Source of the DNA: a virus
Reading direction: 5' to 3' (one strand)
DNA length: 24,798 nt
Virus record (IMG/VR): IMGVR_UViG_3300005346_000075
Coordinates: 1-24,798 of that record
The translations under genes and the position numbers were made by a program. Shown here piece after piece: positions 9,166-12,456 of the stretch. A model generated the notes under the pieces. That model was not told the origin of the DNA, searched no databases, and saw only the letters and a program-made list of their open reading frames with translations. Every line of letters starts with the position of its first letter. The first letter of the stretch is position 1.

Positions 9166-10450
9166 TAGAATACCCCGTAAATTTGATTTGAATTAATCTC
9201 GAACCAAAAGCGCATCATTAAGGCATCAGCATAATCGGGGCTGCGTCCTAATATTTGTTTTTGTAGTTCCTTTGAGTTGATGCTTGGCTTTGTGTCTTTG
9301 TCTATATTCGCCCGTTCAATCGCTTGCAACTCTTGTATAATCGTTTCCGCTTCATCGCAATTTATGTAAAGTTCGCTTTTATTTACCTTTTCTGCAAGTA
9401 GGTAATAACATTCTGCTTTTGTGTTGGCATACTTCGTGCTGGTCTTGTTGGCTATAAAGCCTTTGCACCTTAGCATATCAACTACACCGCCACCGATACC
9501 GTCTTCATCGCATACCACTTGGCTCATGGGTATTAAATATTGTTTAGCCAAATCGGTTATCCTGTTTGCTGCTTCGGTTATGGTGTTTGTCTTGTACGTT
9601 ACCACCTCAATAGCTTTGTAACCGTCCCAAACGATTATAAACGGTCTTATCTTTGCCGAAACGTGCTATGTCGGCTGTTATGTATTTCGTGCCACCTATC
9701 ACGTGCGTATTCGTAAATAGGTCAGAACACGCATCGTTAAAGGCCCATTAACCTTGATGGGTTCATATCGTACTCCCAGTTACCTTAGTAAGCGTTCCCG
9801 TGTGGCTTTGTCTTGTATGTTTTGAATGTTCTCTAGGTAGTGCTTACTGATGTCGGGGTTATCATGCACTAGGGAAGGTACAAACGCCCAATCGCTCCTA
9901 AGTTCGTTTGCCGTGTACGGCTTGTAAAAGTCTTTATAAATCCAATTCTTTGACGGGTTGCAAGTCATTAAACAGTTTAGGTATTAAACCAAAATCGTCT
10001 AATTTGTATCGTATCCTACTCTTTACGACTTCTTTGGCTTTCTTAACCATTTGATTGGCTTCGTCCATAAAAGCCCCAGTTATCTCTAGTGAACCCAACT
10101 CATCGTAATTAGGGTCTGACGGATAATAAAACAAGTCTTTGAGTAGTATCTCGCTGCCGTTGCTAAAACTGGATTATTCCGCTGGTTTGGTTGTAATTGT
10201 ACATGGCAGTCGTAATGCCTTGCATCTTGAACACCTCGAACAAAGTATTGAGCGTGGTTTCTTTTAGGGTCTTTAATTTCCCCCTGCCGATTAACCACCT
10301 AGTACCGCTATACTTTAAAGCGCTCTTTGTTATCCAATAACAACCTAGTACACTTTTACCGCCACCGGCACCGCCTCCAAAAAGTATTTCACTTGTAACA
10401 TTGTCCTCCAAAAGGTCGAGGGCGTAAGTCTGTTTAAGTGATAATTTCAT
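9165..10450 (-). CDS. terL: Terminase large subunit (frameshifted into about five pieces)
   Basis: This is the ATP-driven DNA-packaging motor and headful/cos nuclease. It starts at ATG 10450 (MKLSLKQTYALDLL). The ATPase domain has Walker A LFGGGAGGGKSVLG, WLIGRGKLKTLKETT, and Walker B-type ITGAFMDEANQM, followed by TCNPSKNWIYKDFY (motif III-like). The nuclease domain has KYITADIARFGKDKT, VVCDEDGIGGGVVDML and RSPDYADALMMRF, giving the three acidic positions of the RNase H-like fold. Breaks occur near 10165, 10130, 9960, 9770 and 9610. Motifs on both sides are intact, so the breaks look like indels. The rejoined length is about 430 residues, usual for the family. The small terminase lies just upstream. 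Confidence 0.9.
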
Positions 10451-10906: not shown

Positions 10907-11963
10907 TTATTCTATTCTTTGATGTTGTACCTTGCATTTTACGAGCATTTTCACTTCCGTTACTCTACCATATCTTATACAATTCCAATCTTTTGACTTT
11001 TTTAAGTTAAATATTAAGCTAGGCGCAGAAGTAGCAATGACATATCTTTGTTTCTGTCTTTTGTAAATATACCCTATTTCATTCAAAAACCTTATACCAA
11101 AACCTGCGCCCTGATAATCTGGCAATATAACAAGTCTATGCACCTTTTTTATGTTTTTGACTTTAGGATGCGGAAAATGTAATACACTTAAAAACCCCGC
11201 TATTTGATTGTTTATAGTTGCTATGTAAACAGTTGCTGCGTTATTATGTGAATGGCTTAAATAATGGTGCTTAGCAAAACATCTTCCAAATTGATTTGTT
11301 ATTTGCTTGGTAGATTTCTAAATTTAATGTTTGGTCTATTTTTTTTTTGCCCTTAAAAAACTTTGAAAGGTCATTGTGTCAGTATTAAAAATACCAAATC
11401 GGGGAAGGTAAACCAAATCTCCTACATCTTCATGACAAGTAAACTGCTATAAAATTTCTTGTTTGTTTTTCGTATTGCTTTTTGCATAGCAAATGAACCT
11501 ATTTGTGCAACATTTCTATCGACTACTGATGTAAACTCGTCAAACACAAATAATTGATTGTCTTCTAATATTGCCCTTGCTAAATCAACTCGCATTTTTT
11601 GACCATTAGATAATACGCTATAAGGCTTTAACCAACTTGGCGGGCTTGAAAAGCCAACTGAATTAAATGCGGAAGTTATATCTTCCACAGATTTATTTTT
11701 AGGCATATCATCCAAAACCGTTTCACTACTGTATGTAAAGTTAGTAACGTAGCTATGCTCAAATAGTTGCTTTGCAATTGTTGTTTTTGCCAGTTCCGCT
11801 TTTTCCCAACTATTAAACCCACTTGCCAATTATCTGCAATGTCAATATTGCCCTTAAAGTGCTCTACAATGTGTTCTGATTGCAAATCAAATTTACCGAT
11901 AACTGAAGATACCCTAAATGTTAGTTTTGGTTTTACTTCTTTTATAATGTCAAAAGTCGGCAT
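10907..11963 (-). CDS. ABC-type ATPase fused to GNAT acetyltransferase, COG2401-like (frameshifted)
   Basis: It starts at ATG 11963 (MPTFDIIKEVKPKLTF), inside the end of the ParB-like gene. The ATPase has Walker A GKSGTGKTT, recovered by shortening two A5 runs near 11795 to A4, then the ABC signature region LSNGQKMRVDLARAI, Walker B NQLFVFDEFTS, and the H-loop AVTCHEDVG. After another break near 11350 the second domain reads FAKHHYLSH, IAGFLSVLHFPHP, and a GNAT acetyl-CoA loop HRLVILPDYQGAGFGIRFL. About 350 residues. ABC ATPases fused to a predicted acetyltransferase form COG2401; cellular role unknown. It lies between ParB-like and terminase genes, suggesting DNA-linked work. Confidence 0.85.
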
Positions 11964-12456
11964 TCGTAACCTTTTTCTATTAACTGATTATATACTAACT
12001 CTTGGTGTTGCTCGTCTTTGCATACAACTTCTATTCTAAACATCTTTTCAATGTTATCTGACAAATCATCTTGCTCGTCAGCATCGGGCGCAAAATTAGG
12101 TATATCAAGTCCCCACTCCTCTAGTTTTTCAACATCCCATTCATTTGCCAGTTGCTCCCCAGTCCCCATTCGCCAAACCCTACGTTATCCTTGATTATAA
12201 ACTGCCTTTGCTCATCCTCGGTCAGTTCACTAGCTTGCTTTACCCATGTATCGGGTATTTCATCGTATTTAAGGTGTTGCAGGGCTTTTAAGCGCATATT
12301 GCCACCAAGTAGTACGTTATCATCATTTACTACCATTGGGCGCAATTCAAGCATCTTTGGGAACTCCTTTATTGAGTTTACTAGCTTGTGGAACTTATCG
12401 TCCTTGATGACCCTCGGATTGCTTGGGTTCGGTTTTATGTCTTTTAGCTTTATCAT
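11942..12456 (-). CDS. ParB/Srx-like N-terminal domain protein (frameshifted)
   Basis: It starts at ATG 12456 (MIKLKDIKPNPSNPRVI) with ATGA overlap to the upstream small gene. The ParB domain is clear: PNPSNPR, RPMVVNDDNVLLGGNMRLKAL (the G-G-N-x-R nucleotide-binding loop), and FIIKDNVGFGEW. A frame change near 12165 joins to EQLANEWDVEKLEEWGLDIP, a stretch usual in phage ParB-like proteins. The C-terminus FRIEVVCKDEQHQELVYNQL to CRLLTL is a separate small alpha/beta segment. About 170 residues. Such proteins bind or hydrolyse nucleotides and often partner DNA-modifying enzymes. Its end overlaps the ABC-GNAT gene by 22 nt, indicating coupled expression. Confidence 0.85.

Follow-up and report, generated by a model that had tools for sequence, protein, structure and literature searches.

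A GNAT domain coupled to an ABC ATPase was earlier predicted to introduce an acyl modification, itself uncharacterised, into a DNA base (Iyer 2013, as cited in PMC7824862), and QAX98348.1 is the example protein named in PMC7824862. This protein is annotated in Aeromonas phage AsFcp_2, not in pT24, and both phages encode members of the GNAT-ABC family. In the 7-deazaguanine DNA modification systems, the ParB-like protein DpdB works with DpdA (PMC12839542), and ParB-DpdA was found near TerS-TerL (PMC6392294). Phages also encode ParB-DNA methyltransferases (phrog_498), in which the writer is an N6/N4 methylase, and phage Mu possesses Mom (PF25680), a GNAT-like DNA modifier devoid of an ABC domain. 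In turn, the tRNA(Met) cytidine acetyltransferase TmcA unites an ATPase and a GNAT acting on a base.

The stretch analyzed here (hereafter the window) is the 24,798-nt virus record IMGVR_UViG_3300005346_000075, positions 1 to 24,798. Its ParB/ABC-GNAT locus is located on the minus strand and comprises the following features:

12456 to 11942, minus strand: ParB/Srx-type N-domain protein, split by one frameshift, with phrog_620 and phrog_498 matches; ParB fold in the model of a relative
11963 to 11942, minus strand: overlap of the ParB stop and the ABC-GNAT start, 22 nt, of equal length in 84/84 loci
11963 to 11370, minus strand: ABC ATPase domain (approximate boundary), spread over several frames, intact in relatives
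11370 to 10884, minus strand: GNAT domain (approximate boundary) with the HHYLS motif and acetyl-CoA loop, including ORF 10907-11143
10807 to 10571, minus strand: presumed position of the terminase small subunit, placed by synteny, no profile match
10450 to 10163, minus strand: fragment of the terminase large subunit (phrog_979, E 3.6e-5), with a P-loop GGGAGGGKS at 10352-10378

The ORF list of the window contains ParB-like ORFs at 12121-12456 and 11942-12169 and ABC/GNAT ORFs at 11676-11963, 11422-11829, and 10907-11143, all on the minus strand. The earlier note on this DNA had described an ABC-GNAT gene here; the ORFs and motifs are indeed in place, but the gene is not intact, as the ABC and GNAT motifs fall in different reading frames, and the ParB gene is also broken, with one frame change needed. 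Alignment with an intact relative revealed many gaps of 1-4 nt in this region. Moreover, ORFs are short over the entire record, the longest stop-free stretch being 276 codons, while most of the five shorter related loci compared reach 408-588. Assembly indels are thus the simplest and likely cause of the broken genes, and the likely source of the window-wide frameshifts is an uncorrected long-read assembly. The ABC-GNAT protein read through its frameshifts served as query, for searching only.

All the motifs previously claimed for this protein were located on the minus strand of the window: Walker A (GKSGTGK, 11786-11806), the ABC signature (LSNGQ, about 11596-11613), Walker B (11527-11553), the H-loop (TCHED, 11426-11440), and the GNAT acetyl-CoA loop (PDYQGAGFG, 11096-11122), together with a D-loop (11515-11529) and a GNAT HHYLS motif (11255-11272). 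The window matches Pfam ABC_tran at E 4.7e-7, and the protein read through its frameshifts matches phrog_11143 at E 4e-87; of the same domain order and sequence family, it is a member of the phage GNAT-ABC proteins. QAX98348.1 matches over 95% of the query (E 2e-40). As the acyl-DNA prediction was already made and its example protein is homologous, the family is not new. The claim that such proteins have no established role therefore holds as regards experiment, but a role had already been predicted. The clade of the window does differ from the example, which has no adjoining ParB, in that its proteins measure ~355 aa and are encoded after ParB (22-nt overlap) and before a terminase. To the prediction as cited in PMC7824862, the present analysis adds the coupling with ParB, the single-chain fusions, the wide extent of the association with terminase, and the exchange of enzymes in the slot behind ParB.

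The key residues of the five ABC motifs (Walker A, signature, Walker B, D-loop, H-loop) do not vary among 61 diverse members, nor do GNAT residues F225, Y230, R272, and W322, while H229, Q280, G281, and G283 are nearly invariant and W222 is counted among the near-invariant positions. Structures were predicted as monomers. Foldseek aligned the AlphaFold2 model of an intact relative (L006; pLDDT 87, pTM 0.78) with ABC cassettes, with a GNAT, and, over the two domains together, with TmcA (2zpa). Both sites anticipated by the earlier note, for ATP and for acetyl-CoA, are thus represented by conserved motifs and by predicted folds within a single-protein model. The profile search yielded no close solved relative of ABC-GNAT by sequence, and the 60 best profile matches shown included no TmcA chain, all being ABC-type ATPases.

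Relatives were detected by tblastn in 77 GenBank phage records, 338 viral-contig stretches, and 426 bacterial or archaeal genome stretches. In the 80 viral loci retained, ABC-GNAT is a single open frame of 352-362 aa, while ABC and GNAT occupy two adjacent genes in Lactococcus P335, Streptococcus, and Oenococcus phages. ParB adjoins ABC-GNAT in 78/78 viral, 58/72 genome, and 12/20 GenBank loci. The 22-nt overlap claimed for the two genes is present in the window, and exactly the same length was found in every one of the checked loci, down to ~50% protein identity. It also recurs in many planctomycete and other genome loci, whereas in other clades the overlap equals 19 or 4 nt. Given the 338 viral relatives and the identical overlap, the association goes far beyond chance. 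In two planctomycete loci (L144 and L188), ParB, ABC, and GNAT are joined in a single chain; two further apparent fusions (L162, L192) were dropped, since they look like spurious high-GC N-terminal extensions. A programmed -1 frameshift within the overlap was considered, as the frames are compatible, but inspection by eye revealed no classical slippery heptamer, and ordinary translational coupling is therefore assumed. Several members, encoded by T4-like Aeromonas phages, Vibrio phages, P12024S, pT24, and Komp_PAO1_1, have no ParB or no terminase close by, so that ParB is not obligatory.

The ParB-like protein of the window matches ParB_N (PF02195) weakly (E 4.1e-5, just below the cut-off) and carries a GxxR-type motif (GGNMRLK, 12286-12306, minus strand), which places it in the ParB/Srx superfamily. 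Intact relatives consist of 166-196 aa, and the predicted model of one of them matches structures of CTP/CDP-bound ParB N-domains (Foldseek, E 1e-5 for ParB-CDP). They share a C-terminal element, VxVxCxDExxQxxLxxxLxxEGxxCRVLTL, which ends the window protein as GYECRLLTL. It is more conserved than the ParB N-domain and may represent a docking piece.

Counted from annotated terminases, a same-strand TerL-like gene lies no more than 4.5 kb downstream of ABC-GNAT in 43/44 viral, 44/66 genome, and 9/18 GenBank loci. Together with the ParB adjacency and the fusions, this bears out the expectation that the arrangement recurs in other phages. The neighboring terminases fall in many phrogs, hence the synteny is not simply one inherited block. 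As for the terS-terL pair that the earlier note placed beside the module in the window, the TerL fragment is supported by its profile match, whereas TerS was assigned from position: neither Pfam nor phrogs matched the presumed TerS of the window, while TerS matches exist in relatives.

Archaeal ABC-GNATs possess the same two domains and the HY motif. They are longer (mostly 450-530 aa), with a much lower profile score and no ParB found beside them, and are probably of the COG2401 type; our literature search retrieved no paper naming COG2401. A TerL-like neighbor occurs in up to 7/18 archaeal loci (L325, L326, L327, L328, L329, L333, L338), and that of L326 matches a solved phage TerL at 3e-14 in the PDB comparison. 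In one Bathyarchaeota genome (G307, loci L316-L320), a split ParB-ABC-GNAT trio is present in four or more copies, most of which have no terminase close by.

Other neighbors vary. ABC-GNAT is followed by a gene for a formyl-transferase domain protein (PF00551, phrog_9240; L089:1823-2473, L094:4484-5101, L090:5089-5562) in Gordonia, Pseudomonas Komp_PAO1_1, and Porphyromonas phages; this protein might make or alter the acyl donor or the product. In phage Jace, this position is occupied by an aspartate decarboxylase gene (PF02261, 2e-33; L086:4571-4996); the product of this enzyme, beta-alanine, is a precursor of CoA. Phage-plasmids of Enterobacter (L095:2629-6067) and Acinetobacter (L096:2073-6056) carry two ParB genes and an ABC without a fused GNAT. 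In both, a phrog_886 protein is encoded nearby, and the Enterobacter one matches GNAT weakly.

New evidence on function comes from the position directly behind ParB. We surveyed the 80 viral loci closest by the ParB N-domain alone, 77 of which were readable, and found a recognised DNA-modification enzyme fused to ParB or directly after it in 55. Amino-methyltransferases prevail (38/77), the DNA methylase being fused to ParB in 34 loci and adjoining it in 4. They are followed by DpdA-like transglycosylases (10), TAGT glycosyltransferases (3), C5-methyltransferases (2), and Mom (2; L279 and L284), the C5 methylase and DpdA having been assigned to loci from the ORF sequences together with family counts. 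ABC with a separate GNAT was found in 9 loci, and other genes or nothing readable downstream in the remaining 13. Pfam searches identified an N6_N4 DNA methylase domain in 33 of 42 long ParB ORFs and gave a TAGT count of 4; these figures differ slightly from the similarity counts (33 vs. 34 fused methylases, 4 vs. 3 TAGT) because of different cut-offs and ORF sets. The survey is biased toward one ParB clade, mostly of the Firmicutes type, and its loci are related to each other, so the counts do not represent independent events.

The exchange is seen in the Streptococcus group, in which ParB domains 97-99% identical to the query run into a methylase (L232, L233), while those 94-95% identical lead to ABC with the 22-nt overlap (L234-L241). 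The slot also remains linked to packaging genes. Among the three ORFs examined after each ParB-methylase, a TerL-like gene was present in 25/34 cases. The linear record of Lactobacillus phage PMBT4 ends with ParB-TAGT and has TerL after a small gene at its start, so that ParB-TAGT adjoins TerS-TerL across the genome ends. The ParB-methyltransferases thus have the ParB N-domain family and the pre-terminase slot in common with our locus and differ in the writer. The DpdA/DpdB systems likewise pair a ParB-like accessory with a writer, near the terminase in phages, yet their writer is a transglycosylase, and the likeness observed is that of the slot and the ParB domain.

Further slot contents were also noted. 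At three loci (L259, L289, L310), a SAM-synthetase-like gene accompanies radical SAM or glycosyltransferase-like genes, which may represent additional DNA-modification pathways. DUF4417, found in the slot survey and fused to ParB at L217:3417-4565, may be another modification enzyme, and one locus (L254) has two ParB-like genes in a row. Homology of the GNAT with Mom was considered and rejected at the level of profiles: the HY motif after a conserved aromatic residue resembles that of Mom by eye, but the hhalign probability was about 2%, with no significant profile similarity and a single sub-threshold Pfam match (E 0.034).

Since DNA modifiers recur in the position behind a single ParB family, the ABC-GNAT found there probably modifies DNA too. 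Most likely, judging from this sequence context, ABC-GNAT writes a DNA modification and ParB is a shared accessory. Specifically, we regard it as probable that ParB and ABC-GNAT form a two-gene phage module that would acylate the DNA of the phage itself just before packaging. The module would be expressed together with the packaging genes. The ParB/Srx protein would bind NTP and DNA and act as a DNA-targeting or licensing accessory common to other phage DNA modifiers, as DpdB does with DpdA. The ABC domain may spend ATP to grip, distort, or travel along DNA, comparable to the ATPase partner of TmcA on RNA, and the GNAT domain would take an acetyl or related acyl group from a CoA donor and attach it to a base of phage DNA, at an exocyclic amino group. 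The modified DNA would then be packaged, the mark protecting it from restriction in the next host. In broader terms, we tentatively propose, at somewhat less than even confidence, a new class of DNA hypermodification, in which an ATP-driven ABC-acyltransferase operates at packaging and one swappable ParB accessory serves methylases, transglycosylases, glycosyltransferases, Mom, and ABC-GNAT alike.

The earlier note had suggested acetylation of DNA or of a DNA-bound protein before packaging, and the slot exchange with known DNA-modification enzymes makes the former the better supported. Instead, the substrate could be a protein bound to DNA (with terminase, portal, or ParB as the likeliest candidates, or else a DNA-binding protein of the host), whose acylation would license or time packaging, with ParB and ABC bringing the GNAT to DNA. 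GNATs mostly acetylate proteins or small molecules, which counts against a DNA substrate; moreover, TerL lies just downstream across many TerL families, and in some archaeal loci the longer ABC-GNATs adjoin TerL-like genes in the absence of ParB. Yet, DNA-modification enzymes fill the same ParB slot beside the terminase, which explains the synteny without a terminase substrate, and some members are located far from any terminase. We consider a protein target unlikely. It is more improbable still that the ABC part is a packaging or DNA-remodelling ATPase of SMC/Rad50-like behavior, with GNAT retained in a structural or regulatory capacity. Although the ABC motifs are the most conserved part and the phage-plasmids retain ParB-ABC without a fused GNAT, the nine GNAT residues listed above are also near-invariant, which argues for catalysis, and the phage-plasmids have a separate protein, matching GNAT weakly, encoded nearby.

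The match of TmcA over both domains (Foldseek E 3e-7) raises the thought of RNA (tRNA) acetylation by a phage counterpart of this enzyme. The TM-score is low (0.31), however, and the resemblance is one of fold only; the ATPase is an ABC cassette and not of the TmcA class, and DNA is indicated both by the coupling with ParB and by the slot shared with DNA modifiers, which renders this explanation very improbable. Least probable of all, and hardly to be expected, is host take-over, in which the ParB-like protein and GNAT would disturb chromosome segregation or nucleoid proteins of the host. Interference with host chromosome proteins, also suggested earlier, found no support beyond the homology of the ParB N-domain. 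Against it speak the late position of the module with packaging genes and the sharing of ParB with DNA-modification enzymes; the Foldseek alignments with partition-type ParBs spanned only some 100-130 columns, mostly in the N-domain.

For GNAT-ABC proteins, the chemistry has stood as a prediction since 2013, and the slot exchange provides an independent reason to seek the product in virion DNA. The prediction is directly testable, as the module is carried by cultured phages whose hosts are harmless, namely Lactococcus phage P335, Gordonia phage BiggityBass, and Leptospira biflexa phage LE3. Should ParB serve phage DNA modification as a general accessory, the neighbors of such ParB genes would offer a route to further modifying enzymes.
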